Source: Acidobacteriota bacterium (GTDB lineage: Bacteria; Acidobacteriota; UBA6911; RPQK01; JAPXNP01). Taken from it: a DNA stretch of 34,464 nucleotides. This document shows positions 988 to 17,730 of this stretch, piece by piece. The notes under the pieces were generated by a model. The model did not search any database, was not told the DNA's origin, and saw nothing but the letters and a program-made list of their open reading frames with translations. The position numbers and the translations under genes are program-made. The DNA lies in assembly GCA_020350445.1 (NCBI GenBank), contig CP070717.1:4931281-4965744 (forward strand), written 5' to 3'. Positions within the stretch are counted from its first letter, which is position 1. Every line of letters begins with the position of its first letter.

Positions 988-1327
988 GACAAGCTTCCAG
1001 CTTGTCTCTTGGGGCGTGAGGGCTCGCGTTGCTCGCCTGGTGAGGCTCGTGCTTCGCACTTTGCAGGTGAGGCGCCTGACGGCGCTGGTGAGGCTTGTGC
1101 TCCGCACCTTGCTGGTGAAGTGGAGGACTGGAACACACCCGCCTCGGTTGCGAAGGGAACCAGAGAATTGCTGAGTTGGGCTCGATGTCGATTGAGGCGG
1201 GAGACCGGTTTCCGAGAGACAACCCGGAGGGTTGTCGTACGACAAGCTTCCAGCTTGTCTCCGGCAAGGTACCGGGTACTCGGGTGAACGGGAGCCTGGA
1301 TTCCGAGGGACAAGCTGGAAGCTTGTC
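988..1327. repeat. Cluster of REP/BIME-like hairpins filling the intergenic region
   Basis: The gap from 917 to 1327 holds no convincing gene. It contains GACAAGCTTCCAGCTTGTC at 988-1006 and 1241-1259, and the opposite orientation GACAAGCTGGAAGCTTGTC at 1309-1327. Each is an 8-bp perfect stem with a 3-base loop (TCC or GGA). A sister hairpin, GACAACCCGGAGGGTTGTC, sits at 1218-1236 directly before the second copy, separated by GTAC. The last hairpin abuts the stop codon of the esterase gene at 1328. The arrangement resembles REP/BIME clusters mobilised by RAYT transposases in other bacteria. No transposase is in this window. Confidence 0.8.
1039..1120. repeat. GGTGAGGC tandem units with variable hairpin stems
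   Basis: GGTGAGGC recurs at 1039, 1066 and 1087, with a degenerate GGTGAAG at 1114 (spacing 27, 21, 27). Between the copies lie short hairpins of different sequence: GTGC-TTC-GCAC (1049-1059), GCGCC-TGAC-GGCGC (1072-1085) and GTGC-TCC-GCAC (1097-1107). The flank is conserved while stems change with pairing kept. It lies inside the hairpin cluster at 988-1327. Confidence 0.7.
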
Positions 1328-2236
1328 TTACTTTAGCATTCCCAGATCCTTCAGCCAGGCGGCGCAGTGGTCGGGCCAGTTGCTGACGGGAAGGTCGGTT
1401 TTCCGGACGCCGTAGCCGTGACCGCCCTTTGGGTAGATGTGGAGTTCGGAGGGTACGTTGGCCTTCTTCAACGCCAGGTACATCGCCAGACTGTGCTGTG
1501 GTCCCGATTCGGGATCATCGAAGGTGTGAACCAGGAAGATCGGTGGAGTGCCTTCGGGAGTTCGAATGTAGGGAGCCAGGACATCGGTGTCGACATCCTC
1601 GGGAAGCAGGTAGCCGGGATAGATGGCCGCGGCAAAGTTGGGCCGGCAGCTCGTCTCGTCGATGGCATCCTGCGGTTCATAGGAGCGCCGATCGAAATAG
1701 GTCGCCGTCATTACTGCCAGGTGGCCACCGGCGGAGAACCCCATGATCCCGATCCGCTCGGAGTTGATCCCCCACTCCGAAGCCCGGCTGCGGACCAGGC
1801 TGACCGCTCGCTGGGCATCCAGCAGGGGACCGGGTGCCGGTTCCGGTTCGGGCTGTCCCGGACGCCGCGGGACCCGGTACTTCAGGACGATTCCCGCCAC
1901 ACCGATCGAGTTGAGCCAGCCGGCGACCTCTTCACCCTCGAGATCCCAGGCCAGGTTCCAGTAGCCTCCGCCTGGACAGATGATGACAGCAGCTCCGGTA
2001 TTTTTCGATTCTTCCGGAAGAAAGACCGAGATCGTCGGACGCGTAACGTTGGTGATCCAAATCGCGGTCTGAGTGGGGTTTTCCTCCGCGCTGCGAATCC
2101 GTTCTGGACCGGTTTCCCCATAATCTCCTGGGACAGCTCCCGGCCAGACCGGCAGAATCAATGGAGAGTCCCCAGCCAGGGGGCTGGCAATCAGGAAAAG
2201 AAAGCTGACCGTCAGGAATCGAGCTGAAATACACAT
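1328..2236 (-). CDS. Secreted alpha/beta-hydrolase (acetyl esterase / xylan-esterase-like)
   Basis: A 302-residue exported serine hydrolase of the BD-FAE/acetyl-esterase type that would remove acyl groups from polysaccharides or small esters. I chose the start at 2236 because it opens with a signal peptide (hydrophobic to about residue 20, ending near Leu-Ala-Gly). AAGGGG lies upstream. The same frame stays open to 2488, but that extension would place the signal peptide internally. Visible are the oxyanion-type CPGGGY (residues 87-92), the nucleophile elbow GFSAGG with Ser168, a candidate acid at Asp240/Asp241 and His273 in GGHGYG. The C-terminal WPDHCAAWLK pattern is common in planctomycete/acidobacterial esterases. 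It is divergent from the DUF1697 gene. Exact substrate is unknown. Confidence 0.85.
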   Translation of the reverse strand: MCISARFLTVSFLFLIASPLAGDSPLILPVWPGAVPGDYGETGPERIRSAEENPTQTAIWITNVTRPTISVFLPEESKNTGAAVIICPGGGYWNLAWDLEGEEVAGWLNSIGVAGIVLKYRVPRRPGQPEPEPAPGPLLDAQRAVSLVRSRASEWGINSERIGIMGFSAGGHLAVMTATYFDRRSYEPQDAIDETSCRPNFAAAIYPGYLLPEDVDTDVLAPYIRTPEGTPPIFLVHTFDDPESGPQHSLAMYLALKKANVPSELHIYPKGGHGYGVRKTDLPVSNWPDHCAAWLKDLGMLK

Positions 2237-2490
2237 GTCCGCAAATCCCCTTCCGCAAAGACTTTCTGAATAATGGCGCGCAGGCAGGGTCTTGTCTAGA
2301 GGTGAAAACCCTGGACCGATGCGGTGAGGAGGTCTCGACTGGACGAACTCGGCCGCGTCTTCGAGCGCCTTTAACCACTGCTGTTTCAGTTCGGGTAGTT
2401 CGACAGGTTGGGTGAGGTGAAGCCGAGAGAAGTCCTCCGGGCGGTTTTCGGGCTCCCGAAGGAATCCGCTATACTGCCCGAAGAACAAGA
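2237..2490. other. Divergent intergenic region with an open frame upstream of the esterase
   Basis: This 254-bp region separates the divergent esterase and DUF1697 genes and should carry both promoters. I see no convincing -35/-10 pair. On the minus strand the esterase frame stays open for 84 codons. The stretch around residues 24-58 of that extension (LHLTQPVELPELKQQWLKAL and following) reads like real protein, so it may be a remnant of another gene rather than random sequence. Confidence 0.4.
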
Positions 2491-3021
2491 ATGCGCCGCT
2501 ATATCGCCTTGCTGAGAGGAATCAATATCGGAGGAAGGCATCTGTTGCCGATGCGGGAGCTTGTCGAGATCTTCGAAAAGCTCGGTTGCCGGGAGGTGAA
2601 GACCTATATCCAGAGTGGCAATGTCGTCTTTGTCGATTCGGGAAGAGAGAAAACCAGCATTGGAGGAATCCTGGCTGCGGAAATCCTCGAGCGATACGGC
2701 TTCGAACCGGCGGTGATGGTACTGGATGAGGCTCAGCTTCAGCAGGCGATTGACGGCAATCCGTTTCCAACGGAAACCGGGAAATTCCTTCACTTCTTCT
2801 TCCTCGATTCCGAACCGGCTGAACCCGACCTGACAGCGCTGGCGACCGTGAAGACCGAAACCGAAGAGTACAGGCTGGATGGAACGGTCTTCTATCTTTA
2901 CGCTCCCGATGGAGTCGCCCGCTCAAAGCTGTTCAAGAGGATCGAACCCTGCCTGGGTGTACCCGTTACTGCCCGAAACTGGAACACGGTCAGTAAGCTC
3001 GCCGAGCTGGTTAGAGAATAG
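2491..3021 (+). CDS. DUF1697 family protein
   Basis: A 176-residue protein with the hallmark N-terminus of DUF1697 (PF08002): YIALLRGINIGG (residues 4-15), then RELVEIFEKLG and a TYIQSGNVVF segment (38-47). Full length matches the usual ~175-180 residues and ends with the typical ARNWNTVSKLAEL segment. No signal peptide or membrane segment is present, so it should be cytosolic. The family has no established biochemical function. It is a single-gene unit; the gap to the next plus-strand gene is about 100 bp with no clear terminator. The initiating ATG is preceded only by A/G-rich AAGAACAAGA, a weak Shine-Dalgarno. Confidence 0.9.
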   Translation: MRRYIALLRGINIGGRHLLPMRELVEIFEKLGCREVKTYIQSGNVVFVDSGREKTSIGGILAAEILERYGFEPAVMVLDEAQLQQAIDGNPFPTETGKFLHFFFLDSEPAEPDLTALATVKTETEEYRLDGTVFYLYAPDGVARSKLFKRIEPCLGVPVTARNWNTVSKLAELVRE

Positions 3022-3123
3022 TCCGGGCTCAGAGCGTCCTTTCGGACAAAAGCACAGGGAAGTTGCCCCCTATCTTTCTGGGCGCCGGCATGTCACGCTG
3101 GGTCGCTGAAGAGGAGTCTACAG

Positions 3124-4101
3124 ATGCGAGATAGATCGATTCCCTTGATTCTGTTCACCCTGGTTCTAACGTTCACATTCCCGCTTTTCGCCGGTGATCG
3201 CTCACCGCATACCGACTGGTTTCAGAAGGCGGGATACGGTGTCTTCATCCATTTCCTACCCGATGATGAGGCCAGTTTCGCCAAGGTGAAGGATTTCGAT
3301 GTGGGCTACCTGGCGGATCAACTGGAATCGGTGGGGGCCGGATATCTTATCCTGACGCTGGGGCAGAACTCGGGTTATTTCAATCCCCCGAATTCGTCCT
3401 ATGATGCTGCAACCGGCTACCGGCCGGGTGAGCGTTGTTCGACTCGAGACCTGCCGATGGAACTTTTTGAGGCTTTGCGATCGAAGGGAATACGGTTGAT
3501 GCTCTATCTTCCTTCTCAGACCCCGAACGAAGACGGTCGTGCGCAAGCTGCGTTCGGCTTTCCGGTCGGCAAGAAGGACCAGCCCATCGCTATTGAATCT
3601 GCCCGAAAGTGGGCAAGAGTGATTCGCGAATGGTCCGTACGTTACGGCGACAAACTCTCTGGCTGGTGGTTCGATGGAGGCTACGATCATGTCGGGTTCA
3701 ACGAGGAGATTGCGGGGATCTACGCCGAAGCCGCCCGTGCGGGGAATCCATCGTCGATCATCACCTTCAATCCCGGGATCAAACTCGTGCGTCATACCCA
3801 GGCGGAGGACTACACAGCGGGAGAACTGCAGGAGCCATTCGACTTCATACCGACCTCACGCTGGTTGGACGGTTCACAGTGGCAGGCGCTCACCTACCTC
3901 GGTTCTCACTGGTCGGCGCGGGATGTCCGGTACCCGGCGGAACGATGGGCCGAGTGGGCCAAAAAGGTCGTTTCGGGTGGAGGGGTCATCAGCTTCGATT
4001 CCGGACCCAGTTGGGATTCCAGTCAGGGTCCGATCGGCAGCCTTGCAGAGCCGCAGATGGAGATCCTGGGTGAAATCTCGACCGCACTCAAGAATCGCTA
4101 G
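3124..4101 (+). CDS. Secreted short GH29-like alpha-L-fucosidase
   Basis: A 325-residue protein with a signal peptide (residues 1-23, ending FAG) and GAGGAG upstream of the ATG. The fold signature is GH29: DWFQKAGYGVFIHF near the start (31-44), a GQNSGYF segment (80-86) and WWFDGGYD (181-188), where Asp184 matches the catalytic nucleophile position of GH29 enzymes. It would hydrolyse terminal fucose or a similar sugar outside the cytoplasm. It is shorter than typical bacterial GH29 enzymes (often 430 or more) and appears to lack the C-terminal beta-sandwich, ending soon after the barrel. The acid/base residue cannot be assigned by eye. Substrate may differ from fucose. The flanking genes are not obviously co-transcribed. 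Confidence 0.8.
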   Translation: MRDRSIPLILFTLVLTFTFPLFAGDRSPHTDWFQKAGYGVFIHFLPDDEASFAKVKDFDVGYLADQLESVGAGYLILTLGQNSGYFNPPNSSYDAATGYRPGERCSTRDLPMELFEALRSKGIRLMLYLPSQTPNEDGRAQAAFGFPVGKKDQPIAIESARKWARVIREWSVRYGDKLSGWWFDGGYDHVGFNEEIAGIYAEAARAGNPSSIITFNPGIKLVRHTQAEDYTAGELQEPFDFIPTSRWLDGSQWQALTYLGSHWSARDVRYPAERWAEWAKKVVSGGGVISFDSGPSWDSSQGPIGSLAEPQMEILGEISTALKNR

Positions 4102-4239
4102 CTGGATCTCTCCAGTCGTTGAACTCGTCTGGATGCAGCCAGGCGGCATCCTCACCTGCCTGTTGGGAGTTTCTGACAGCCGAGGTCGGGATGAAGAGCG
4201 TTCAGGATTCTCCTTGAACTATCAGCCGGGTGGAGCTAT

Positions 4240-5178
4240 ATGACAGGGATGGGTAGGGTTTTGCTGAAGAGCCTTGCGATCCTTTCCGTCCTGGGTGGAT
4301 GCCTGAGTGCCGTTTTTCATTCCGATCTCCTGCATTGGGCCCTTGAATTGGGTAGACCGTGGTTCTCTTTAGATGGAGAAGTCTCAGAAGCTGGGATTCA
4401 CAATCTGAGCGGCAGCCTTTATTCGGCTTCGCTAGTCGCGATCGCTTTGGTTGTTTCACTTTACAGGATCGCGTTACTCCGATGTTCCCCTGCCGAGTGG
4501 TTTGTAACAGTCTTCTCAGATGATCCCGGCTCTTTGAAGGGGCTATCAGGTTTCCGAACGTTAATCCTGGTGATCGGTTCAGTTCTCCTGGGAGTTGGAG
4601 TCTGTTTCCTGTTAGGGAATCCCGACCAATCGAGGTTGGAGGATACCTGGGTCGAGAATCTGCAACTGGTTTTGCTGGGGATTTCGGCCCTGATCCTGGC
4701 GATGACGTCTTTTCGGGCGGTTTCTCTGAATCTACAATATTCCAGGTTGGCCGCGACCTTTTTGGGCTTGCTGGCCGCCGGAGCCCTCCTGGTCTTGATG
4801 GAGGAGATCAGTTGGGGACAGAGAATTCTTGGCTGGGAGACTCCCGATTCCTGGAGTAGAGTCAACGCTCAAAATGAGACCAATCTGCATAATCTGCTAA
4901 ACGATCTTTTCTCACCGTTGTACCTGATGTTCGGTTTGAGCTTTGTTTTAGTGACCGTCGCTTCGGTGATCCAGCGAACCCGTGATCTTCGAAATCCCTT
5001 GTGGCAGCTCCTTTTACCCCACCCCGCATTCTTCTTCGCCGCGGTTGTATTCACCTCGTTCAACAGCTTCCCGGTTCTCGGGGCGCTCCTCCCCTGGGGT
5101 GAGTTCCAAGAGTTCCTCCTCTACTTCTGCCTGCTGCTTTATGCCTGGGAGAAGCGTCAGTTGATCAAGGCCTGGTAG
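4240..5178 (+). CDS. Multi-pass membrane protein with EEISWGQ...NETNLHN motif
   Basis: A 312-residue integral membrane protein with about eight predicted hydrophobic segments (roughly residues 8-27, 61-80, 107-126, 141-158, 169-188, 222-243, 258-279, 288-305). Its landmark is EEISWGQRILGWETP (188-202) followed by NAQNETNLHN (209-218). This pairing recurs in an uncharacterised family of bacterial membrane proteins. The acidic and His residues at a membrane boundary suggest a conserved active or metal site, but no function is established. GGAG sits 4 bases before the ATG. The 3' end overlaps the convergent hydrolase gene by 22 bp. It stands alone. Confidence 0.8.
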   Translation: MTGMGRVLLKSLAILSVLGGCLSAVFHSDLLHWALELGRPWFSLDGEVSEAGIHNLSGSLYSASLVAIALVVSLYRIALLRCSPAEWFVTVFSDDPGSLKGLSGFRTLILVIGSVLLGVGVCFLLGNPDQSRLEDTWVENLQLVLLGISALILAMTSFRAVSLNLQYSRLAATFLGLLAAGALLVLMEEISWGQRILGWETPDSWSRVNAQNETNLHNLLNDLFSPLYLMFGLSFVLVTVASVIQRTRDLRNPLWQLLLPHPAFFFAAVVFTSFNSFPVLGALLPWGEFQEFLLYFCLLLYAWEKRQLIKAW

Positions 5179-6401
5179 ACCAGGGTCTTGAGCTTGACCT
5201 GAATCTCCGTATCGCAGGGCATCCGGTGGGTCATCAGGAGGATGACCAAATCCTCCTGGGGGTCGATCCGAAAGTAAGTTGAGGCTGCGCCATCCCAGCC
5301 GTAATCGCCAACGGAACCCATGCCGAGGCTTTCGGTAACATCGGTCAGGACGCTGACGGCAAGCCCGTAACCGTGACCGTAGAGCTTGTCCCAGGGGGCC
5401 GTGACTCCTTTCGGCAGATGATCCATGCTCATCAGTTCGACAGTTCGAGGCCCCAGGATCCGGACTCCATCCAGCTCGCCACCGTTAAGCAGCATCTGGG
5501 CAAATCGGAGATAGTCAGCAGTCGTCGAAACCAGGCCTCCCCCGCCGGAATAAAGGCGATTCTTGCCCGGAGAATAAGATGGGTAGCCCAAGGGAAGTGC
5601 AATCAGCTTCCCATCTTCATTGATTCTGTAGCAACTCGTGAACCGTCCGGCCTGATCGTCGGGAACAGAGAAGCCGGTGTCCTTCATTCCCAGCGGTTTG
5701 AAGAGTCGTTGCTCGAAAAACTCGGCCAGCGTCTGCCCCGAGATGACCTCGATGATGCGTCCCAGGACATCGATGCCGACACCATAGCGCCAATCGGTCC
5801 CCGGATCGAAGTAGAGAGGAAGGGTGGCGAGTTTGTTGACCATCTCTTCGAGGGTGAACTCCGGATTCAGAAGCCGGGCTACCTGGTACTTCTTACTTAC
5901 GGGATCATCCGACCAACCGTAGCCGAGCCCGGAAGTGTGTCTTGCCAGGTCGCGGATCGTCATTTCCCTGCTGGGTTTGGTGGATTCTTCAGATCCTTCA
6001 GGGCGGTAAATCTGGACATCCTTGAGGGCCGGAATGTACTTCGAAACCGGTTCGTCGAGGGTGAATTTTCCCTCCTCGTACAGGATCATCAGGGCAGCGG
6101 CAGTTACCGGTTTGCTCATCGAGAAGATCCGGAATATTGAATCCTCCTGAACGGGATTCCCTCTGTCGAGATCGGAGACGCCGAAAGACTCGGAGTAGAC
6201 CAGCCGGCCATATCGGGCGACAGCTACGGTCATGCCCGGAAAGACTCCTCGCTCGACGTAGTCAGCCATGACCGGCGCAATCCTTTCGAGACGTTCACCC
6301 GACATCCCCTGTTGTTCGGGTGTGGATCGGGGTAACCCCTGAGCCCACGGACTCGCGACTTGAAGAGCAAGAGAGATCAAAACCAGACCGAGAAACCGCA
6401 T
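5157..6401 (-). CDS. Serine beta-lactamase-like hydrolase (class C / esterase family, PF00144)
   Basis: A 414-residue exported protein. The start at 6401 is preferred over 6431 because GGAGGGG lies at proper spacing and the signal peptide (MRFLGLVLISLALQ, cut near Trp-Ala-Gln) starts there. The SxxK nucleophile motif is SMSK at residues 94-97. The second motif, normally YxN, reads YGV in WRYGVGIDVLG. The third, normally K/H-T-G, appears as GWDGAAST before FRIDP. This matches class C-like esterases and peptidases rather than a true beta-lactamase, so antibiotic hydrolysis should not be assumed. It would act in the periplasm or at the surface. Its 3' end overlaps the convergent membrane-protein gene. 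Confidence 0.88.
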   Translation of the reverse strand: MRFLGLVLISLALQVASPWAQGLPRSTPEQQGMSGERLERIAPVMADYVERGVFPGMTVAVARYGRLVYSESFGVSDLDRGNPVQEDSIFRIFSMSKPVTAAALMILYEEGKFTLDEPVSKYIPALKDVQIYRPEGSEESTKPSREMTIRDLARHTSGLGYGWSDDPVSKKYQVARLLNPEFTLEEMVNKLATLPLYFDPGTDWRYGVGIDVLGRIIEVISGQTLAEFFEQRLFKPLGMKDTGFSVPDDQAGRFTSCYRINEDGKLIALPLGYPSYSPGKNRLYSGGGGLVSTTADYLRFAQMLLNGGELDGVRILGPRTVELMSMDHLPKGVTAPWDKLYGHGYGLAVSVLTDVTESLGMGSVGDYGWDGAASTYFRIDPQEDLVILLMTHRMPCDTEIQVKLKTLVYQALIN

Positions 6402-6533
6402 ACTGACTCCCCTCCGATTGTCCGAAGACAAGAGAATGATGAACGAGTTGACTGTCGGAGGCGATTCTAGGTTGTCCCCCTACTCCTTGCAAGAAGGCAT
6501 GCTGTCACCTTCTCCAGTTCGATTCCTTATTCG

Positions 6534-7064
6534 CTAATGCTGCCAAACTGCGAAACCTGAAGATCGCAGATGCTGGGCATATTCGACTTCAATAACCTGA
6601 GCGACGCGATAGGGCAATGGGTTGAAGTTCTCGAAGAATTCGGGCATTAACCGCTTGCCATAGCGGCGAACGTACGAGTTGGATCGGTACCCTCTTTTGT
6701 GGTTCTGAAACCGATCCGCTGGATCGAGACCGGTCATCCCGACATAGACACAAGGTCTCGAGCCTCTGAATTCAGGGTTTGCTCGAAGGAATTTCCCATG
6801 GTTTAAGACCTCGGAGTCGAGAAGGACGACGTAGATGTTGTGCCGTGCTCTTCGCCCTCGCGATCGTGAGCTCAACAGGGCATCGAGGATGGGGTGGGAG
6901 GCTCCCGCTGTCTCAATGACCCGTAGGTCCGAAAGATCGACCTCGGCTCTGCCGAGATACTCGAAGAAGACTCGAGCCGATTCCTGGGAAGAATCCTCCA
7001 GTACTTCTCCTGTTCCCCAGGAAGGGTGTCTGAGATGAGTGACCCGTTCACCGTCAAGTAGCAT
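6534..7064 (-). CDS. DUF3553-type domain plus GIY-YIG-like nuclease domain
   Basis: A 176-residue cytosolic protein. The N-terminus has HPSWGTGEVLED, the DUF3553 signature (a small SH3-like barrel also found at helicase C-termini). The C-terminal half has a GIY-YIG-like pattern: NIYVVLL as the first strand, CVYVGMTG as the YIG strand, then DPADRFQNHKRG, SYVRRYG and a conserved Glu in AQVIEVEYAQHL, ending in VWQH. The spacing between the two strands is longer than in classic GIY-YIG nucleases. I chose 7064 because the upstream part of the open frame (to 7130) runs through repeat-derived hairpins, but no strong Shine-Dalgarno marks 7064. A DNA-binding or DNA-repair role is inferred from the two domains. 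Confidence 0.65.
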   Translation of the reverse strand: MLLDGERVTHLRHPSWGTGEVLEDSSQESARVFFEYLGRAEVDLSDLRVIETAGASHPILDALLSSRSRGRRARHNIYVVLLDSEVLNHGKFLRANPEFRGSRPCVYVGMTGLDPADRFQNHKRGYRSNSYVRRYGKRLMPEFFENFNPLPYRVAQVIEVEYAQHLRSSGFAVWQH

Positions 7065-7092
7065 GCTGCTGAAGAGCCATTCTAACGGGTGA

Positions 7093-7180
7093 CGGTGCCT
7101 TCCGGAACTTAGCCGGGACGGCTGCGGCACGACATACGCCCCGAGACTGTTTCGCAGCTGGGACGGCTGCGTCGCAAACC
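7093..7180. repeat. Degenerate hairpin repeats related to the CCGGAACGTAACCG family
   Basis: The stretch CCTTCCGGAACTTAGCCGGG at about 7099 resembles the start of the 56-bp units at the left edge. It contains AGCCG-GGA-CGGCT, the same stem-GGA-stem form with a different stem. A second near copy (GCTGGGACGGCTGCG) follows about 50 bp on. The gap 7065-7203 holds no other visible gene. Confidence 0.55.
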
Positions 7181-7203
7181 GAGATCCGAGGGTGTCTCAA
7201 GGC

Positions 7204-8507: not shown

Positions 8508-8574
8508 GATACCCCCTTGGTTCAAAATATAGGGCAGTTTGCCATCGTTGAAAAGACCCGAAGTCATTGAGAGA

Positions 8575-8790
8575 TGCACCGGAACGCAACCGGCCCGGTT
8601 GGGGATGGCTGTTGGCTACTGGTTGTTGGTCGTTGGCTGCAAGCGGTCGCCCGCGACCGTCTGCCGGAACGGGATCGTCGGCCGGAACGTAACCGGCCTC
8701 GGAACGCGACCGTCTAGGTTGCGAATGGCTGTTGGCTACTCGTTGTTGGCCGTTGGCTGCAAGCGGGGACGCTTACCTTCCGTGTTCGGG
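8575..8790. repeat. CCGGAACG repeat units with NTGGCTR heptamer tracts
   Basis: This gap between two minus-strand genes is almost wholly repeat. CCGGAACG-type starts occur at about 8578 and 8689. The 26 bases from about 8674 match the first 26 bases of the window. Two tracts of five 7-bp units each follow (8605-8639 and 8723-8757), with units such as ATGGCTG, TTGGCTA, CTGGTTG and TTGGCTG. Each ends in CAAGCGG. The second continues into GGGGACGCTTACCTTCCG, the same tail as in the other arrays. No gene is seen here. Confidence 0.8.
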
Positions 8791-8799
8791 CACCTGACT

Positions 8800-11700
8800 T
8801 CAGGGCGCAAGGGGGCGGAACAGCCCGGCTTCGAGCCAGAGTTGGGCGTGACGGACAAAGAGATCGGATTCGTCGGTCTCTCGGGCAGTCTGGAGGTCTT
8901 TACGTGCCTGCTGCTGATCGCCACGGAAGATCGAGTAGATCGCCGATAGATAGTAGGCGTGGACTTTGACATCGAGATCGTTATCCGCTTTGCGCAACCG
9001 GTGTACCGGTTCGAATTCAGCAAACCAGCGCTCGGCTTCCTCCTGGCGGCCAGTTCGATGGAGACCGATCGTGCGGAAGAGGCCTTCGCCATCGGTGTCC
9101 TGATCGGTTGTCATCGAAGCTTGAATCCAGGCTTCTTCGGCGGCGTCGGGGTTACCCGCCAATTCCTGGGTCAGGCCTTCAAAAAGGAGTAAGCGGCTGC
9201 TCTTCAGGGTCGCAAAATCGTCCGAACCGAGACTCTCTGGAGGCCTTCCGGCGCTTGCAATCTGTGCAAGCGCTTCAGAGTAGGAGGAACTCTCGACAAG
9301 TTCATACGCCTTCAGGAGATGCAGGGCCCGGAAGAGACGCAGCAGGGAGTAGGACTGGTGCCGGACTCCGAATCGGTGCCCCTGGATGATTTCCAGCGCT
9401 GAATCGTAGTCGCCGGCCAGCGCCATAAACTTGATCTGCAATTCGATGAGCTGATCGCTAGCCGGGTTGGCCTTCAGTGAACTCCTGACTGTGGTGAGGG
9501 CGTCTTCAGGTCGCCCGCTTCGGGCCAGCAGTCGGGAGACGCCGATCGCTGTCCCAAGGTCTTCGGGCCGGACCTCCGAGGCCTGTCGCAGCATGGTGAG
9601 AGCTTGCTCGGTCTTGCCTTCATCCACCAGAGCCCAGCCGAGGTGCTGCAGGGAGGTAAAGTGGGAAGGGTTCTCCTCCACTGCCTCGGTCCAGAGCTGT
9701 AGTGCCTCCTCACGATGTGTTCTGTTGTAGAGGAGCATAGCGAGAAGGGAAGCGGCATTTGGATCGTGAGGTTTCAGTCTGAGAGCATTCCGCAGCACGC
9801 TCACGGTCTCGTGGCGGAAGGGGAAGATAGCGGTTGGAATCTCTTCCTGAGCAACCTCGTCCAGCAAGGCTCTCCCCTCATCCTCTCTTCCGAGCTTACT
9901 CAACGCATAGATCTGGTAATAGGCCGGCAGAAGACCTGACCCCGACGGAGTTTCCAGCACTGCCGCGGCCAGGAGCTTTTCGGCCTCTTCCCATGCGCTC
10001 AGGGTCATGTACTCCGTGGCCAGTTCCAGAAAACCCTGTGGGTGGCGCGCCAGTGCCTTTTTCAGAGTTTCCACCTCCGATGCCTCCCAATTCGAAGCAA
10101 AAGCTTTCTCAGCGTGTGAGAAGGCGTTGGTAGGATCGATCGAGAGGAGCTCTGAACGGACCTGCGCCGCCACACTTTCCCGGTTCAGCCTCCTGAGTGC
10201 CAGAGCCTGGGCCTGTCTAATGGAAAGCTGTTGAGGTCGCTGGCCGGAAGCCGATTCCAACAATTGAAGGGCTCTTTGGAAATCGCCTCTCTCGAGTGCC
10301 AGCACGCCGAGGCCATAGTCGCGCTGAAGAAACTTGTCTGAAGAAGGGAGCAACTTGTAGTAGAGCTGCTCGGCCCGATTGTGGTTTCCCCGTTCAGATT
10401 CGATGACAGCCAGATAGAAGAGCGCATCACCGTTAAAAGGCTCCCGTTTCAGGGCCTGTTCAAGGTGGGTGACGGCCTTTTCCGGTTCCAGTCTTGTCCA
10501 GGCAAGAAGGCCGAGCTGGATATTGGGTCCAATCATCTGGGGATCGCGGTCGATAGCCTCGGCATAGGCCTGTTCCGCTTCGATCAGCCTTCCCAGTTTC
10601 TCGAGTGTGATTCCCTTTTGAAACAGCTCTTCGGTCGAGAGGCCATCAGACGGTCCGAACTCACGGGGGATGAACTCCGTCGCGACCTGGGCCTCGGGAG
10701 GCGTCCCATCCAGTCGCTGGGTGTGATCAAGCAGCACCGTCGTACTGGACGTGACGGAGATCCGAACCTCAGACGAAGGCTTGTGGTCGCCCAGGTCGAT
10801 CCTCTTCTCAAGAGCCTTTCCGACGGCCAGATCAAGTGTTTCCCGGCCTTTCTCAATACCGTCAATGGACCAGTTCAACAGAGCCTGCGGGAAATTGCCG
10901 GTTGGAGTCAGGTGCAGCGTCGCAGACGCAGGGTCGCCTTCGATCCTGTCGAGTGAGATTGCCAGGTCGCGAGTGGATGTCGTCAGGCCGCCGAGACCTC
11001 CGACCCCGAACCAATACTCCGTCCAGCCATCCGATTGGCCGGGGCCGATGAACTCGTAATTTCCATCCCAGACAAAACGTCCGCTCTGGACTTCGATGTA
11101 GGGGACTCCCGTGTCGGTGTACTGTTCGATGTGGCGCAGGCCGACCTGTCCAACTCCCCAGGTCCAGGTCTTGATTCCTTTGGCTATGTTGCGGTCAGTG
11201 AAGCAGAGTGTCCCTGAGTCGGCTTCGTAGTCGTAGGCCCCCATGAAGTTGTCGTAGATATCCAGGCCGAAGACCCCCAACATGACCTGGTTGTTGCGAT
11301 ACCAGCTCAAATCGACGTCGTTATAGGTGGGCCAGGTCCCGAATTCAGCGCTGTCATGACCGATGGTCTTCGTCATCGGATAGACGAAGCGGGTTCCCTC
11401 GGTTGCGGGCAGCCCCGCATTCGTCCAGAGCAAGTAGCGGTTGGGAAGGTGCGTTCGGTTGTGGAGGTGTACTGTCAATTCGATGAAGCTTCGTCCGGGG
11501 TGGAGTCGTATCCGTGCCGAGATCTTGTTGCGGAAGAAGTGTTCGATATGGGAGAGGATGATTTCGGCACTCCCATCCTCGTACGAGCGGGATGCCCAAT
11601 TCCAGGGCTCACCGGGCCAGGTCAGCATATGAGCGTCGTAGGGGCCGTAGACCTCGAGGTTGCCGGCGGGCCAGGCACCTCTCTGGTTGTAGGAACTCGG

Positions 11701-12102
11701 CTTGACGACACCGGGGTTGTAGAAGAGTTCCCGCTTAGCCGCCTTGTCCCACGCCGACCAGATTCTTCCTCCGAGCTCGGGAAGGAGGACCACTCTCAAG
11801 TAATCGTTCTCCAGGGTAATCGACTCGTATTCGATCGGTTCCGGGCTTGAGCTGAGAGACTCGCGGTCAAACGTGGAGTACGGGTAGAGCCCCGGACTGG
11901 TCTCTGATCGAAAGATCGGGGCAAGGGTGAGTGAGCGGGCGAAGGTGTAGGTTGGAAGGGTCAACTTCCCTTCGATGATCTGAACGGAACTGGAAGCCGG
12001 CGTTTCCTGTCCACCTAAAGCCAGCGTTGTAATGGCGAGTAGCAAAATTAGAGAAAGTGCCCCTGGAATACGTATGCCAACATCTCTCGCGTGTATTTTC
12101 AT
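8800..12102 (-). CDS. Exported DUF5107 domain protein with C-terminal TPR array
   Basis: An 1100-residue protein with an N-terminal signal segment (residues about 12-30, ending ALGGQ). GAGGGATCAAG directly precedes the ATG. Residues about 40-400 match DUF5107 (PF17128): LPELGGRIWSAWDK, NPGVVKPSSYNQRGAWPAGN, HMLTWPGEPWNW and a galactose-mutarotase-like, Trp-rich beta fold that suggests carbohydrate binding. Residues about 480-1090 are a long tetratricopeptide array (typical ALFYLAVIESERGNHNRAE and AEKLLAAA helices). It would act outside the cytoplasm, binding or processing sugars and scaffolding partners. It is transcribed divergently from the GH42-like gene across a short shared control region, which supports a joint role in glycan use. 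Reaction unknown. Confidence 0.85.
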   Translation of the reverse strand: MKIHARDVGIRIPGALSLILLLAITTLALGGQETPASSSVQIIEGKLTLPTYTFARSLTLAPIFRSETSPGLYPYSTFDRESLSSSPEPIEYESITLENDYLRVVLLPELGGRIWSAWDKAAKRELFYNPGVVKPSSYNQRGAWPAGNLEVYGPYDAHMLTWPGEPWNWASRSYEDGSAEIILSHIEHFFRNKISARIRLHPGRSFIELTVHLHNRTHLPNRYLLWTNAGLPATEGTRFVYPMTKTIGHDSAEFGTWPTYNDVDLSWYRNNQVMLGVFGLDIYDNFMGAYDYEADSGTLCFTDRNIAKGIKTWTWGVGQVGLRHIEQYTDTGVPYIEVQSGRFVWDGNYEFIGPGQSDGWTEYWFGVGGLGGLTTSTRDLAISLDRIEGDPASATLHLTPTGNFPQALLNWSIDGIEKGRETLDLAVGKALEKRIDLGDHKPSSEVRISVTSSTTVLLDHTQRLDGTPPEAQVATEFIPREFGPSDGLSTEELFQKGITLEKLGRLIEAEQAYAEAIDRDPQMIGPNIQLGLLAWTRLEPEKAVTHLEQALKREPFNGDALFYLAVIESERGNHNRAEQLYYKLLPSSDKFLQRDYGLGVLALERGDFQRALQLLESASGQRPQQLSIRQAQALALRRLNRESVAAQVRSELLSIDPTNAFSHAEKAFASNWEASEVETLKKALARHPQGFLELATEYMTLSAWEEAEKLLAAAVLETPSGSGLLPAYYQIYALSKLGREDEGRALLDEVAQEEIPTAIFPFRHETVSVLRNALRLKPHDPNAASLLAMLLYNRTHREEALQLWTEAVEENPSHFTSLQHLGWALVDEGKTEQALTMLRQASEVRPEDLGTAIGVSRLLARSGRPEDALTTVRSSLKANPASDQLIELQIKFMALAGDYDSALEIIQGHRFGVRHQSYSLLRLFRALHLLKAYELVESSSYSEALAQIASAGRPPESLGSDDFATLKSSRLLLFEGLTQELAGNPDAAEEAWIQASMTTDQDTDGEGLFRTIGLHRTGRQEEAERWFAEFEPVHRLRKADNDLDVKVHAYYLSAIYSIFRGDQQQARKDLQTARETDESDLFVRHAQLWLEAGLFRPLAP

Positions 12103-12114
12103 CTTGATCCCTCA

Positions 12115-12174
12115 TGACTCATCCCCATGCTCCAGCGCTGGGTGAGTCAGGTTGCAAGGTTAATGGCTGAGTCA
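12115..12174. promoter_or_regulatory. Three TGASTCA sites in the divergent DUF5107/GH42-like control region
   Basis: TGACTCA occurs at 12115-12121 and its complement TGAGTCA at 12143-12149 and 12168-12174. Start-to-start spacing is 28 and 25 bp. The 7-mer is itself a near-palindrome. The first two also form the arms of a larger imperfect inverted repeat (TGACTCAtCCC and GGGTGAGTCA). They occupy the only 126 bp between the two start codons (12102 minus and 12229 plus). This is where an operator for a regulator of both genes would be expected. The regulator is not in the window. Confidence 0.45.
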
Positions 12175-12228
12175 AATGAACTCAATGGGGTGACTTCCCA
12201 AACCAAGTCAACTATAAAAGGGGCCATA

Positions 12229-15200
12229 ATGAGTTTTCGACCGGTCGTTCTCTTTCGATCCGCAGCGTTCGCTTTCTTCCTGTTATTGAGCTGTCCGAGT
12301 ATCCTCGCATTCGCCGAACCGGATGTCTTTGCCACCTTTGAACTCGCTGAAGAGGTGAATCGCCTCGAGCACTCTGAGGGAGTGCAACTGAAGTCGTCGG
12401 AGCGATTTCCCGCATTTGGAAAGAACTCTCTCGAAGTCGTCTTTCCCGAAGCTGGGGGAAGGGTAAGGCTCGAGTCGGTTCCTGCTGACTGGCGGTGGCA
12501 GGGGTCGCTTCTCTTTTTCGTCTGGAGCGATGAGGAAAACGCGCTTCGGGTAATTCTCCAGGACCAGGAGAGTCATCAGTTCAGCCGGGATTTTGCCCTT
12601 CAGCGAGGTGCGAACCATGTTCAGTTGCCTCTTTCCGAAGTGAATGGACTGGAACTGGGGGCGATGGAGGCTGTCGTGTTGGAATCGTCTGCGGCGCAGA
12701 CCGTATTCCTCGACTATTTTGCCCTTGACCGGTTTCATCCAGTACTCGTGGAACGGGGGCGTTGGGATGTCAACTATTCAAATCAGGTAGTCACCGATCA
12801 TTTTCCCTGGGGCAGGGAACTGAAGACGGGGACGATTCGAGCGTTTGCGATTGCCGATGTGGCCAATGGCCGTGGTGTAATTGAACTGGCTCAGCGCTTG
12901 GAGTTGACACCGAAAGCTGTGACCCTCGGGCGCTCGCCGGGTATCAACAAGTGGGGCTTTGGTGATTTCTACGAACAGCGCAGCGGCGGTGGAGAGTTCT
13001 GGGCTGACCCCTATAGCTTGATTCATACCTATATCGCCAGTGACCTGTTATATGGTCCCGATTACGACGTGATCCTCTGGCCGGGGCTGCATCCCTGGGA
13101 AAGCTTTCCAGGAGAGATTCGCGATGAGATCCGGCGGCGTGTCGAGAACGGAGCCGGTCTCGTCTTTTTCTATCCCGTGACGCAGGACTCGGAAGCCGGA
13201 GGGCTCCGCGACCTCTCTCCGTTAGTGATCGAGAAGGCCCTTGGGGGAGAGTTTGGCATGACTACGCCGGTCCTGGATGAGAGCCGGTGGGCAGCCGGCA
13301 AGGATCACTACATCACCCGTGGGATTCCCTTCGAGGCCTTCCCGTGGGGCCAGATCGGGGTTGTCGAATCGGACGTCCAGGGTGAGATCCTGCTGAAGAC
13401 CGAGGAGGGGACTCCCGTATTGGCCACGCGACAGGTGGGAAAAGGCCGGGTCGTCGCCTTCGCGTATCCGGAGAAGGGGATGATCCCTCAGATCGATAAG
13501 GTTTTTGAAACCGGTCTGCACTACCCCTATCACGAGTACATGTGGTCGCTGGTGGCCCGGTCTGTGGTTTGGGCGGCCAGTCGAGAACCCGTGGAAGCGA
13601 TCGTTCAAGTCGAGCAGAACGGTGATGAGGTTGTGGTCGAATTTTCCGGGGTGACGGACGGGGCAACCGTGGAAGCAACTGTTGGAAGTGACTTTGGCGA
13701 GCGGGAGGCCCAGCTTTCGATTCAGGTTCCCGCAGGTGCTGAGAGAGTGAACCTGGCAGTCCCCAAGGATCTCGGGAAGGGGCGTCACTTTGTCAACCTC
13801 CGGCTTATCCGAGATGGTGCGACCCTCGACTGGGCCGGTGCCGAGGTGAACCTGGAGTCTGATGTCAGAATCGCCGGCATCGAGGAGATCCCTGAGCAGA
13901 TCCAGGTCGGAGAACGGGTCAGCGGGAAGCTGCGGCTGTCTGCGAGCCGGTCAACCGAAGCAGAGGTGACCGTTCGGTTGTATGACAACTACGACCGGCT
14001 GGTCGACCAGAATATCCAGGAGGTCCAGGTCGATGAGGAGACAGCACTTACCATCTCGCTGAATTCAACCGGTGCCCTGTCCCATATCGCTCGGATCGAC
14101 TGTGAGGTGAAGGTTGGGGGGCGCCGAAGTGATCGAAAGACTTCGGAAATTTTTGTCATCCAGCCGAGGAAGTGGGATGACTACGATATCGTCATGTACC
14201 GGTTCGGACCCGATCCGATTCCCGGGATCTGGCCTGCGATCGATCAGCAGATGCGGCGTCTGCACGTGACGACCCTGTCCTCTTATTCGCTGAGTCACAG
14301 CAAACATGCCAACTACAACATCCAGGCCCAGACACGGATCAGCGGCCAGGAATCGCCGGATGGGCCGGCACGTAACTACTACGTGGCGATGAAGAAGGAG
14401 TATGCGAACAGTCGGAACAAGCGGGGTTTGGTCCGAGAATTCTGTATGAACGATCCCGCCTACCATGAGTTGGTGAAGAAGGAAATCCGGGAGAAAGCAG
14501 GGGAATGGGCCCCGTTATCGCCGCTGTCTTACTACGTCTACGAGGAACCGTCCCTGACCTGTTATGCCGACGATCTCGACCTCTGTTTCTCGGATCACTG
14601 CATGACCAAGATGAGGGGGTGGCTGAAGGCTGAATACAACGGGCTCGATGAGTTGAATCGTCGTTGGGGGACAGACTTCGAACGGTGGGACGACGTCATG
14701 CCCGATGACACATACGAAGCTCAGGCCCGGGGGAATTATGCCTCCTGGACAGATCACCGCACCTTCATGGAAAAGACCTATGCGGGCTTCTTTGCCTTTG
14801 TCCTGGATGAACTGCGGAAGATTGACCCGGAGGGAATGCTCCTGAATTCGGGAACCCAGGTGTCAGGGGCCCACAACGGGTGTGACTACAGTCAGATCAA
14901 TAACTACACACGGCATTTGAATGCCTATGAGGGTGGAAACCAGCTCGACTTCCATCGCTCCTTCAATCCCGACATCAAAATGTCGAGTGGGGCTGGGTAT
15001 GGAGTGCTGGGGAAGAATGTCTTCTACGACTTCTACAGCAACCTGTTCAAGGGAAGCAACGGTGGGGCCTACATCTTCTGGCAATACTCAACGCTCGATC
15101 CCGATCTGTCAATGAGCCAGAGCGGACTGGACATGGAAGAAGGGTTTGGCGAGCTGCGAGGGCGAGGAATTGGGAAACTTGTCGGTCTTGCCCAACCTGA

Positions 15201-16389
15201 CAACCATGGGATTGCTGTCCACTATTCCTATCCCAGCATTCATGCGGCCTGGATCGTTGACGGTACGATCGAAGAGAGAGTCGTCTATCGAGCCAGTAGT
15301 AAAACCTTGCGGGCCTTCAATGACAACCGGGATGGATGGGTGAAGATTCTCAAGGATTCAGGACTGCAGTTCGATTTTATCTCCTATGGCGACGTCGAGC
15401 AGGGCAAGCTGATCTCCAAAGGCTACAACACTCTGGTTCTGCCGATGAGTCTCGCGTTGAGCGACGAAGAGATTGTGGCGATAAGAGAGTTCGTTTCGCA
15501 GGGTGGAACGGTCATCGCAGACGCTTTGCCCGGTGTGATGGATGAACACTCGGTGTTCCGGTCCGATCGGCAGATTAAACAGTTGCTGGGCATCGAAGCG
15601 AGACCGGTGTCAACCGAGACAGTCGTGGCGATGGAAGGAGAGCCTGCGGTGGAGCTCAGAGGCGCGGAGGCACTGGCTCAGGCTGGAAAGAAGCCCATTC
15701 TTCTCAGGCACCGGGTAGGAGAGGGGCAGGCCTTTCTTCTGAACTTCTTCCTGGACGGATATCCGGAGGACAAACTCGAAGGGCGGGAGCGGCCTGCCCT
15801 GGAACGGATGAAGATTGTCCTGGATGCAGCGGGGATTGGCCCGAAGGTCAACCTGAGGACCGTCGAGGATGAACCGGTAGCTGGCTGTGCCCGTTACCTG
15901 TTCGACCAGGGGACTACTCAACTTTACGGGCTGGTACCAGATAAAGAGCGCCAGGGATCCCCGCAAGTTCGGATCGGGTTGGAGACAGGCAAGACCATCT
16001 ACGATGTGCGCCGTAGTCGATACCTTACGACCGCTGACTCGTTCACAGTCGAGATTGAGCCGGCAGTACCGGAGCTCTTTGCCTTTGTTGACGGCAGGGT
16101 CGAGGAGATTCAGTTGGAATCGCCTGACGCTGCGCAGCTGGGAGAGGAAGTGACTGTGAGTCTTCGAGTCCTGGGTATTGACCAGTACCGTTCGGTTGGG
16201 ACGGCTGTAGTTGTCGACCCTCGAGGGAGGGAGATCCCGCTTTACGGCGGAAACCTGGACATCGTCGACGGGACAGGCCGGCTCTCGTTTCGGACCGCTC
16301 TGAACGATCCTGCCGGGTCCTGGACAATTCGAGTCAAGGATACGGTTTCAGGTGTCGAAGGCGTGACGAGCATCTCAGTCTCAAACTGA
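12229..16389 (+). CDS. Very large secreted GH42-like glycosidase with two Rossmann/amidotransferase-like domains
   Basis: A 1386-residue exported protein. The start at 12229 has AAAAGGGG upstream and opens a signal peptide (to about FAEP, residue 24); the frame is open from 12127 but without support. Order of parts: an N-terminal beta domain; a first amidotransferase-like Rossmann segment (from about residue 270, with VILWPGLHPWE); beta-sandwich regions at about 450-640; and a GH42-type TIM barrel. The barrel has YVYEEPSL at 768-777, where Glu772/773 sits at the family acid/base position, and the typical CFSDHCMTKMRGWL...LNRRWGTDF...WDDVMP. Next come a second Rossmann segment like the GH42 trimerisation domain (from 1065, LVLPMSLALSDEEI) and a C-terminal beta domain. 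Beta-galactosidase activity is not certain. It is divergent from DUF5107-TPR. Confidence 0.8.
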   Translation: MSFRPVVLFRSAAFAFFLLLSCPSILAFAEPDVFATFELAEEVNRLEHSEGVQLKSSERFPAFGKNSLEVVFPEAGGRVRLESVPADWRWQGSLLFFVWSDEENALRVILQDQESHQFSRDFALQRGANHVQLPLSEVNGLELGAMEAVVLESSAAQTVFLDYFALDRFHPVLVERGRWDVNYSNQVVTDHFPWGRELKTGTIRAFAIADVANGRGVIELAQRLELTPKAVTLGRSPGINKWGFGDFYEQRSGGGEFWADPYSLIHTYIASDLLYGPDYDVILWPGLHPWESFPGEIRDEIRRRVENGAGLVFFYPVTQDSEAGGLRDLSPLVIEKALGGEFGMTTPVLDESRWAAGKDHYITRGIPFEAFPWGQIGVVESDVQGEILLKTEEGTPVLATRQVGKGRVVAFAYPEKGMIPQIDKVFETGLHYPYHEYMWSLVARSVVWAASREPVEAIVQVEQNGDEVVVEFSGVTDGATVEATVGSDFGEREAQLSIQVPAGAERVNLAVPKDLGKGRHFVNLRLIRDGATLDWAGAEVNLESDVRIAGIEEIPEQIQVGERVSGKLRLSASRSTEAEVTVRLYDNYDRLVDQNIQEVQVDEETALTISLNSTGALSHIARIDCEVKVGGRRSDRKTSEIFVIQPRKWDDYDIVMYRFGPDPIPGIWPAIDQQMRRLHVTTLSSYSLSHSKHANYNIQAQTRISGQESPDGPARNYYVAMKKEYANSRNKRGLVREFCMNDPAYHELVKKEIREKAGEWAPLSPLSYYVYEEPSLTCYADDLDLCFSDHCMTKMRGWLKAEYNGLDELNRRWGTDFERWDDVMPDDTYEAQARGNYASWTDHRTFMEKTYAGFFAFVLDELRKIDPEGMLLNSGTQVSGAHNGCDYSQINNYTRHLNAYEGGNQLDFHRSFNPDIKMSSGAGYGVLGKNVFYDFYSNLFKGSNGGAYIFWQYSTLDPDLSMSQSGLDMEEGFGELRGRGIGKLVGLAQPDNHGIAVHYSYPSIHAAWIVDGTIEERVVYRASSKTLRAFNDNRDGWVKILKDSGLQFDFISYGDVEQGKLISKGYNTLVLPMSLALSDEEIVAIREFVSQGGTVIADALPGVMDEHSVFRSDRQIKQLLGIEARPVSTETVVAMEGEPAVELRGAEALAQAGKKPILLRHRVGEGQAFLLNFFLDGYPEDKLEGRERPALERMKIVLDAAGIGPKVNLRTVEDEPVAGCARYLFDQGTTQLYGLVPDKERQGSPQVRIGLETGKTIYDVRRSRYLTTADSFTVEIEPAVPELFAFVDGRVEEIQLESPDAAQLGEEVTVSLRVLGIDQYRSVGTAVVVDPRGREIPLYGGNLDIVDGTGRLSFRTALNDPAGSWTIRVKDTVSGVEGVTSISVSN

Positions 16390-16393
16390 CACC

Positions 16394-16563
16394 CCCTGGA
16401 GTGCGGTGGCCCCAGCCACCGCCCTTCTCACGGAAGCCCATCCCCTGGCAGGGAGTCAAGTTCCCTAACGAGCCAGTCTGGTGGTAGTGGAGGTCTTTTA
16501 GAAGCAACTTGACGGAACTGAAGTTCCTTAAGGAAGGCGGAACAGAAGTTTCGCACTCCAGGG
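16394..16563. repeat. 170-bp MITE/BIME-like element with 12-bp perfect terminal inverted repeats
   Basis: CCCTGGAGTGCG at 16394-16405 and its exact complement CGCACTCCAGGG at 16552-16563 bound the element. Inside are a perfect hairpin, GCGGTGGC-CCCA-GCCACCGC (16403-16422), and GGAACTGAAGTTCC (16514-16527). The right half, read on the minus strand, matches the element at 34373-34421 (CCTGGAGTGCG, a C-rich linker, then GGAACTTCAGTTCC). It starts five bases after the GH42-like stop, so the first hairpin could also end that mRNA, though no T-tract follows. No coding sequence is seen in 16390-16599. Confidence 0.7.
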
Positions 16564-16599
16564 AGCTTTCATTGTATTGGGCGAGTACAATGCTTCTTT

Positions 16600-17490
16600 A
16601 TGAGACTCTCGGGCCTTCATCTGCTGTTGACCTTACGCTGTATCTACGAGTGTGATCACTGCTTTGTCTGGGGAAGTCCCCAGAAGTCGGCAACAATGAC
16701 GCTGGAAATGATCCGCAAGATCATCCGGCAGGGAAAGGAACTCGACGGTTGCCGCTGGATCTACTTCGAAGGAGGGGAGCCCTTCCTCTACTATGCTGCT
16801 CTGGTCGAGGGTGTTCGAGAGGCCGCGGCAGCAGGATTCCAGGTGGGTGTCGTCTCGAACGGCTACTGGGCAACAAGTCTGGAAGATGCGAGGGAAAGCC
16901 TTCGGCCATTCGAGGGCCTTGTCGAGGATCTCACCGTATCGAGTGACCTGTTTCACGGCAGCCAGATGGTGAGCCCTCAGTCCCGGTTTGTCCGGCAGGC
17001 CTGTGAGGAGCTGAAAGTTCCGTTCAATATGATCTCCGTCTGTTCGCCGCTCGACCCTCAGGAGCCTGATACCTGTGGAGAAGGTATAGATCCTTCGACT
17101 GTGCGGTTTCGGGGAAGGGCCGCTGAGAAACTGGTTTCCATGGACAAGGGCGAGGAGTCCGAACAGTATCGGGAGTGCCCCTATGAAGAGTTGGGCCAGC
17201 CCGATCGTGTTCATATCGACCCGTATGGGAACCTCCATGTGTGCCAGGGGATCGTGATCGGCAATCTGCTCGAGAAGCCCCTGGCTGAAATCTCGGGGGA
17301 GTATGATCCGGCAAAGCACCCCATCGTTGGGCCCGTGCTTGAAGGTGGCCCCCATGAATTGGCCAGACGATCAGGTCTCACATCCGAAGGCAGATTCAAC
17401 GATGCCTGCCATCTCTGCTATCAGACCCGCAAACAGCTGCTGAGCCGTCATCCCAGAGAACTCGGTCCGTCGGAAATGTACGGACTCTGA
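16600..17490 (+). CDS. Radical SAM protein with SPASM-like C-terminus
   Basis: A 296-residue cytosolic iron-sulfur enzyme. Cys14, Cys18 and Cys21 form the radical SAM CX3CX2C motif, and GGEP follows at residues 58-61. The C-terminal third has several further Cys residues (ECPYEEL, LHVCQG after IDPYGN, and ACHLCY). The DPYGN-CQG-IGN pattern is typical of SPASM/Twitch auxiliary-cluster domains. These enzymes modify peptides or proteins, or serve as sulfatase-maturing enzymes. No sulfatase or precursor peptide is seen next to it. It follows the repeat element at 16394-16563 and precedes the repeat array at 17496. Substrate unknown. No strong Shine-Dalgarno precedes the ATG. Confidence 0.88.
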   Translation: MRLSGLHLLLTLRCIYECDHCFVWGSPQKSATMTLEMIRKIIRQGKELDGCRWIYFEGGEPFLYYAALVEGVREAAAAGFQVGVVSNGYWATSLEDARESLRPFEGLVEDLTVSSDLFHGSQMVSPQSRFVRQACEELKVPFNMISVCSPLDPQEPDTCGEGIDPSTVRFRGRAAEKLVSMDKGEESEQYRECPYEELGQPDRVHIDPYGNLHVCQGIVIGNLLEKPLAEISGEYDPAKHPIVGPVLEGGPHELARRSGLTSEGRFNDACHLCYQTRKQLLSRHPRELGPSEMYGL

Positions 17491-17495
17491 CCCCA

Positions 17496-17730
17496 CCGGA
17501 ACGTAACCGTCTCGGTTGTGGATGGTTGTTGGCTGATGGTTGTTGGCTGCTGGCGCCGGAACGTAACCGGCTCGGTGGTGGATGGTCGTTGGCTGCTGGT
17601 TGTTAGCTGTTGGCACCGGAACGTAACCGTCCCGGTCGTGGATGGTTGTTGGCTGCTGGCACCGGAACGTAACCGTCCCGGTTGCGATGGGGGGTTGGCA
17701 AGCGGGGACGCTTACCTTCCGGGCGGTGGG
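17496..17730. repeat. Four CCGGAACGTAACCG units with variable heptamer number
   Basis: Units start at 17496, 17556, 17616 and 17662, and the tail CTTACCTTCC ends at about 17720. Unit lengths are 60, 60, 46 and about 57 bp. The first two carry five 7-bp motifs of the NTGGYTG type (from 17522 and 17582). The third carries three (from 17642). The 14-bp length difference is exactly two heptamers. The fourth has the left-edge form (GCGATGGGGGGTTGGCAAGC). Hairpins AACCG-TCT-CGGTT and AACCG-TCC-CGGTT occur within. The tract is stop-free in the frame of the downstream gene. Confidence 0.85.

Follow-up and report, generated by a model that had tools for sequence, protein, structure and literature searches.

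We show that a 34,464-nt window of the genome of an Acidobacteriota bacterium (GCA_020350445.1, contig CP070717.1, positions 4,931,281 to 4,965,744) contains short hairpins with a nearly constant loop and variable stems, which are very probably repetitive extragenic palindromes (REPs) of the kind associated with REP-associated tyrosine transposases (RAYTs, or TnpA-REP). The repeated unit is 19 nt long, with two 8-bp stem arms enclosing a three-base TCC or TCT loop, and is preceded by a 5' tag.

Intergenic and coding counts were based on 2.03 Mb of sequence (40% of the genome), for which twenty 100-kb blocks were added to the window; genes were called by hexamer scores (our own calls), and 368 kb were intergenic. 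Shuffle controls were single Markov reshuffles, and the reversed sequence served as the control for genome-wide copy counts. Perfect stems of at least 8 bp around a three-base loop numbered 101 in the intergenic part (27.4 per 100 kb, against 2.2 in shuffles and 1.3 in coding sequence). The loop was GGA/TCC in 64 of the 101 and AGA/TCT in 17, and neither loop occurred even once in the shuffles or in coding sequence. With stems of at least 5 bp and a GGA/TCC loop, the counts were 131 intergenic hairpins against 17 in shuffles, and for loops longer than three bases the excess was far weaker or absent. A preliminary description of the window, made from the sequence alone, had pointed to hairpins with a TCC/GGA loop at gene boundaries; the intergenic excess is real and GGA/TCC dominates it, so that neither a lack of enrichment nor an equal frequency of other loops was found. 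Tagged intergenic hairpins of the three families described below numbered 116 (A), 99 (B), and 32 (C), while one shuffle of the entire sample yielded 66, 40, and 17, with about 18% of these expected in intergenic sequence. Across the whole genome, the family A hairpin GACAAGCTTCCAGCTTGTC occurs 97 times in exactly this form and the family A pattern GACAASCNTCCNGSTTGTC 150 times, with none of either in the reversed control, and many hairpin copies lie in tandem arrays with a spacing of 36-68 bp. High copy number, intergenic placement, and a short palindrome with a small loop, as expected of REPs, are thus found together.

Family A carries the tag GTAC (or GTAG/GTAA) and stems GACAAGCT, GACAACCC, and GACAACCA; its intergenic tags comprise 74 GTAC, 18 GTAG, 14 GTAA, and 10 GTGG. 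In family B, with the tag CGGAA, CGTAACCG-TCC/TCT-CGGTTGCG alternates with an inverted GGTAAGCG-TCT-CGCTTGCC. Family C, which is looser and also occurs elsewhere in the genome, has the tag GGAGT, stems such as GCGGAACT and GCGGCAGT, and more variable loops (TC, TCG, TCC, TTCT, and TAC). Close to family C arrays we also observed four copies of CTGTATCTAGGAAG-TTGAAAG-GTA-CTTTCAA-GGA (genome positions 77141, 561391, 591999, and 1056352), which seems to be a piece of a longer mosaic repeat. A text search of the literature for the hairpin sequences returned no match.

Stem variation is orderly. In family A, pairs 6 (G-C/C-G) and 8 (T-A, C-G, A-T, G-C) vary on both arms and pair 2 does so partly; in family B, pairs 1 and 6 vary on both arms, and pairs 5 and 7 are almost invariant. 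Stems are therefore constrained to a few discrete types within a family and free between families and lineages. The suggestion in the preliminary description that structure is under selection agrees with these data, as substitutions at pairs 1, 2, 6, and 8 affect both arms and leave the pairing intact. Its view of the stems as unrelated does not hold, since families A and B have a common core, NNYAASCN, within a full stem of 8 bp, and AACCG, which it took for a complete stem, represents just the inner bases of CGTAACCG/CGGTTGCG. Nor do the data support copying that would rebuild stems in place, because each family consists of a few stem types copied repeatedly, with no continuum between them. 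The accompanying premise that RAYT-mobilised REPs normally keep their stem sequence is contradicted by earlier work, in which most GTAG REP families are divided into sub-families that differ by complementary replacements in the stem (Di Nocera 2013, PMC3733652).

Further evidence comes from the way in which hairpins pair. Same-family neighbours at most 70 bp apart form 54 inverted pairs, 51 of which are heterotypic, with one AAGC and one AACC stem (p=3e-10 for family A, p=4e-4 for family B); the three homotypic inverted pairs lie 49-60 bp apart. Same-orientation neighbours are homotypic in 16 of 18 cases. Inverted pairs often have a single palindromic tag in common, GTAC in family A and TTCCGGAA in family B, and inverted pairing of this kind is the arrangement of bacterial interspersed mosaic elements (BIMEs) and REPINs. 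The 42-mer family A heterodimer at window positions 1218-1259 forms, as single-stranded DNA (ssDNA), one hairpin per half (-15 kcal/mol, z -6.7), and a family A homodimer that we constructed folds, under RNA parameters, into a single 19-bp stem. That heterodimers are preferred among inverted REPs, for no obvious reason, was stated previously (Di Nocera 2013, PMC3733652). An explanation suggested by these folds is that equal halves would form one long cruciform.

The connection with RAYTs is provided by relatives of this genome, most of which carry Y1 genes. In a Phycisphaerae metagenome-assembled genome (MAG), MAG24, the gene of a 205-aa Y1 protein (L162) has copies of GTAG-GACAAGCA-TCT-TGCTTGTC and the corresponding inverted partner to either side, and a query with this protein found full-length homologues in relatives. 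The hairpin GACAACCA-TCCC-TGGTTGTC flanks the gene of a 210-aa homologue (L177) in a genome of the same family (G156) and occurs in the present genome as well, so that at L177 and L162 a relative has the same hairpin next to a RAYT gene, as it should for a REP. The hairpin-flanked proteins match the NCBIfam model REP_Tyr_transpos (NF047646) with E values of 1e-18 and 2e-14. Other RAYT genes (L175, L176, L182-L186, and L189) are likewise flanked by hairpins with TCC/TCT loops and mostly unrelated stems. Flanks with GT tags include GTAG-AAGCGGCA-TCC, GTAG-ACGCGGCG-TCT, GTAC-GCCGGCT-TCC, and GTAGT-TCAAGCT-TCC, and those with GG tags include GGGAG(T/C)-GCAGGCG-TCT, GGAGC-GCCCGCA-TCT, GGAA-GGGCGATT-TCCT, and GGAAC-GCGGATGT-CC; altogether, the tags next to RAYTs of relatives are GTAG, GTAC, GTGG, GGAG, and GGAA. 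Of 60 hairpins in the neighbourhood of this RAYT type, 41 have a TCY-type loop, whereas next to other Y1 genes 1 of 19 has one (p=1e-6, although copies are not independent), and counted per locus the figures are 12 of 16 against 1 of 11 (p=0.001). In a tree of the proteins, GTAG/GTAC/GTGG tags on one side and GGAG/GGAA tags on the other sort with RAYT clades, several branches being weakly supported. Because of the loops, stems, and tags found around the RAYTs of relatives, a constant loop with differing stems appears as a property of this RAYT superfamily. Selection on the loop is likewise supported by loops that stay TCC, TCT, TCCC, or TCCT near these genes while stems are wholly different.

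A pattern scan of named genomes with GTAGGACAAGCTTCCAGCTTGTC gave matches in Phycisphaerae, Pedosphaera, and Armatimonadota MAGs. The identical 23-mer is present in MAGs of three phyla (G302, G303, G304, G305), although well under one occurrence of a sequence this long would be expected by chance in 257 Gb; its presence there suggests either transfer of RAYT-REP systems or recurrent convergence.

Within the window, the following hairpins and related features were located:

29-32 and 33-51, plus strand: tag GGAA and family B hairpin CGTAACCG-TCC-CGGTTGCG
62-80, minus strand: family B partner GGTAAGCG-TCT-CGCTTGCC, tag TTCCGG on its right side
89-107, plus strand: family B hairpin CGTAACCG-TCT-CGGTTGCG
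118-136, minus strand: family B partner GGTAAGCG-TCT-CGCTTGCC
145-163, plus strand: family B hairpin TGTAACCG-TCC-CGGTTGCG
174-192, minus strand: family B partner GGTAAGCG-TCT-CGCTTGCC
984-987 and 988-1006, plus strand: tag GTAC and family A hairpin GACAAGCT-TCC-AGCTTGTC
1097-1107, no strand: GTGC-TCC-GCAC, inside a separate GGTGAGGC tandem repeat at 1038-1120
1218-1236, minus strand: family A hairpin GACAACCC-TCC-GGGTTGTC, left half of the heterodimer
1237-1240: palindromic tag GTAC, common to both halves of the heterodimer 1218-1259
1241-1259, plus strand: family A hairpin GACAAGCT-TCC-AGCTTGTC, right half of the heterodimer
1309-1327, minus strand: family A hairpin GACAAGCT-TCC-AGCTTGTC, its tag GTAA overlapping the stop codon of the open reading frame (ORF) 1328-2488
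7111-7123, no strand: AGCCG-GGA-CGGCT, possibly a degenerate relative of family B, membership uncertain
8585-8603, plus strand: degenerate family B copy CGCAACCG-GCC-CGGTTGGG
16403-16422, plus strand: family C hairpin GCGGTGGC-CCCA-GCCACCGC, tag GGAGT
16537-16554, minus strand: degenerate family C hairpin GCGAAAC-TTCT-GTTCCGC, tag GGAGT, read directly from the sequence
17502-17520, plus strand: family B hairpin CGTAACCG-TCT-CGGTTGTG
17668-17686, plus strand: family B hairpin CGTAACCG-TCC-CGGTTGCG
17697-17716, minus strand: family B partner GGTAAGCG-TCCC-CGCTTGCC
34381-34398, plus strand: family C hairpin GCGGCAC-TTCG-GTGCCGC, tag GGAGT

Family B thus forms an array of alternating inverted partners at 33-192, in which the tags of inverted partners overlap as TTCCGGAA, and occurs again near 17502-17716. 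The single family A hairpin at 988-1006 has a predicted ssDNA folding energy of -6.6 kcal/mol (z -5.4). An Rfam search of the window returned no match. All five strings named in the preliminary description are present, including GACAAGCT-TCC at 988-1006 and 1241-1259 and GACAACCC-GGA at 1218-1236; AACCG-TCC-CGGTT lies at 36-48, 148-160, and 17671-17683, the first two sites preceding the point from which the family had been described. Membership among these REPs holds for three of the five and is unsupported for the other two. AGCCG-GGA-CGGCT (7111) is preceded by a CGGAA tag, but the tag strand carries GGA, not TCC. We rejected GTGC-TCC-GCAC as a member of these families, as sister copies of the GGTGAGGC repeat have loops such as TTC, TGC, or CTGC. 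Missing from that inventory were the family A hairpin at 1309-1327 (GGA loop) and the AAGCG-AGA/TCT partners at 62-80, 118-136, and 174-192. Placement at gene boundaries agrees with the strong intergenic excess, with the qualification that 17671-17683 falls within the naive ORF 17518-19827; translation of this frame probably begins further downstream, past the repeat array.

Other repeats lie nearby. At 1021-1135, the GGTGAGGC-framed tandem repeat contains short variable hairpins (GTGC-TTC-GCAC, GCGCC-TGAC-GGCGC, and GTGC-TCC-GCAC), and similar cassettes occur at many intergenic sites genome-wide. Intergenic short tandem runs of GGCTGATGGCTAATGGCTGAT are found at 34280-34360, and the related 14-mers ATTAGCAATTAGCA and TGGCTAATGGCTAA are among the most frequent intergenic words.

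Several observations weigh against the assignment of these hairpins to RAYT-type REPs. The search for a Y1 transposase gene, which the preliminary description had considered a natural check, succeeded beside such hairpins in relatives, while a RAYT of the L162/L177 type was not found in this assembly by protein and RAYT profile searches. A genome search with PF01797 found no Y1 gene, a failure of sensitivity, since three divergent Y1/RAYT-like genes of about 300 aa came to light with a RAYT profile, followed by a protein search; a nine-sequence alignment of other Y1 proteins gave E 0.14 at best. Of the three, L202 (1453211-1454116) is intact and matches NCBIfam REP_Tyr_transpos at E 2e-9, L203 (1666207) has an internal stop, and L204 (3037297) is cut by a gap; none adjoins A, B, or C hairpins. 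Additionally, most family A tags are GTAC and not the canonical GTAG/GTGG, families B and C have GGAA and GGAGT, and the NCBIfam matches of the hairpin-flanked proteins in relatives fall below the curated equivalog cut-off. A search for empty sites with the joined flanks of 94 clusters produced two spanning matches, neither of them a clean empty site. Four copies of IS110-type transposases (PF02371) were found, with no established link to the hairpins.

The assembly itself bears on the absence of the linked RAYT. The 2.03-Mb sample contains 240 gaps of 100 N, and a REP lies within 150 bp of 26 of them, compared with 34 of 3809 random positions (about 12-fold, p=4e-17). Therefore, a REP-flanked RAYT could be absent for technical reasons, and the linked gene could either have been lost or be hidden in an assembly gap. 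The 16S rRNA gene (L205, genome position about 738738) is also interrupted by a 100-N gap, the scaffold breaking at repeats. Its sequence contains the general EUB338 probe site, and the Planctomycete and Verrucomicrobial variants of that site are absent.

How far can other explanations account for these hairpins? In favour of transcription terminators or mRNA-stability hairpins under RNA-structure selection, with a loop preference arising from stable tri- or tetraloops, are a slight over-representation where genes converge (28 of 102 clusters, p=0.018), a depletion between divergent genes (p=0.012), and the G-T pairs in stems. However, the 3' flank consensus is TCTTGG in family A and AAAC in family B, without the T-tract of an intrinsic terminator, and a conserved 5' tag, strict inverted heterodimers, near-identical dispersed copies, and linkage to RAYTs are not terminator traits; we regard this explanation as improbable, although the hairpins may have a secondary role in RNA. 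Self-correcting palindromes, whose stems are rebuilt after each mutation by template switching or arm-to-arm conversion with no transposase involved, would account for changes on both sides of pairs 1, 2, 6, and 8 in families A and B and for the few copies with one mispaired position. Such a process sits poorly with a small number of discrete stem types in many identical copies, with conservation of tags and 3' tails beyond the stem, and with the RAYT linkage in relatives, and is the most improbable of the alternatives.

A different matter is whether the elements are orphans, their RAYT lost long ago and only decay or local tandem amplification continuing, which concerns present activity and is compatible with a RAYT origin. 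The absence of the linked RAYT type, the tandem arrays, and the internal stop in one of the Y1 paralogs of this genome speak for dead elements; 97 identical copies at many dispersed loci point to fairly recent copying, and the enrichment of gaps at REPs means that a RAYT flanked by them could be hidden. We consider loss of activity quite conceivable, if on the doubtful side.

In the scheme that we favour, a single-strand-specific HUH/Y1 transposase copies the hairpins, which as short palindromes are themselves non-autonomous. The unit would consist of the 5' tag acting as a guide, the 8-bp stem, and the TCC/TCT loop, with the AAGC and AACC stem types forming BIME- or REPIN-like inverted heterodimers. 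The enzyme likely recognizes the tag in single-stranded form, the bases of the loop, and perfect pairing, and little of the stem sequence; such reading would hold the loop while stems change, with no need for a stem-remaking process. Stems would then drift through compensatory change and the founding of new sub-types, and inverted partners would have to differ to let the two halves form separate hairpins. From the sequence patterns, we infer mobilisation by a RAYT in this lineage, reading of the loop, and this reason for heterodimers. Studies on group 3 TnpA-REPs in vitro have determined that specific loop bases and a perfect stem are required, that stem mismatches impair or abolish cleavage and stem swaps matter less, and that a guide mutated to GTAC redirects cleavage predictably (PMC8266576). 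It is tempting to go further, and more tentatively, to a single RAYT superfamily that reads the TCY loop, with tag (GTAG/GTAC, GGAG, or GGAA) and stem replaced by lineage, a loop code common to the REP families within a genome and identical elements across phyla, and inverted pairs that fuse through a palindromic tag and need two stem types to fold separately.

The hairpins are real, abundant, and of a known kind, that of RAYT-type REPs. They resemble CGTC-tagged REPs (PMC3733652) in being palindromes of high copy number with no adjacent RAYT in their own genome, but the CGTC, TGTC, or CCTC tag and the 4-5-base loops of that class were not found among their tags and loops. As in E. coli BIMEs, where types Y and Z do so, two REP types alternate in inverted orientation; E. 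coli REPs are longer and have a bulge, in contrast to the perfect 8-bp stems described here. Perfect short stems also characterize the group 3 TnpA-REP/REP pairs of S. maltophilia and Marinomonas (PMC8266576), whose loop bases are decisive in vitro and whose stem sequence is tolerant, whereas enzymes and loops differ and the RAYTs of the present system are known from sequence. Close parallels also exist with GTAG REPs and their BIMEs (PMC3733652; Nunvar 2010, PMC2817692), which are short intergenic palindromes with 6-9-bp stems and 2-3-base loops, often TY, a 5' GTAG tag (here 18 GTAG and 10 GTGG), inverted dimers that in many families are preferentially heterodimers, complementary replacements within stems, and RAYT-flanking copies (here in relatives). 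Unlike them, the commonest tag here is GTAC, a palindrome common to inverted pairs, B and C have GGAA and GGAGT, and the linked RAYT is absent from the assembly. New in detail are these three tags, the sharing of a palindromic tag, and the series of constant loops and variable stems across RAYT clades. Cruciform avoidance offers a concrete candidate answer to the heterodimer puzzle stated in 2013, and the natural RAYT-REP series, with its loop constant and its stem and tag varying, is suited to testing what the enzyme reads. A REP class so far defined by GTAG and CGTC tags gains GTAC, GGAA, and GGAGT families, together with RAYT-linked hairpins tagged GGAG or GGAA.

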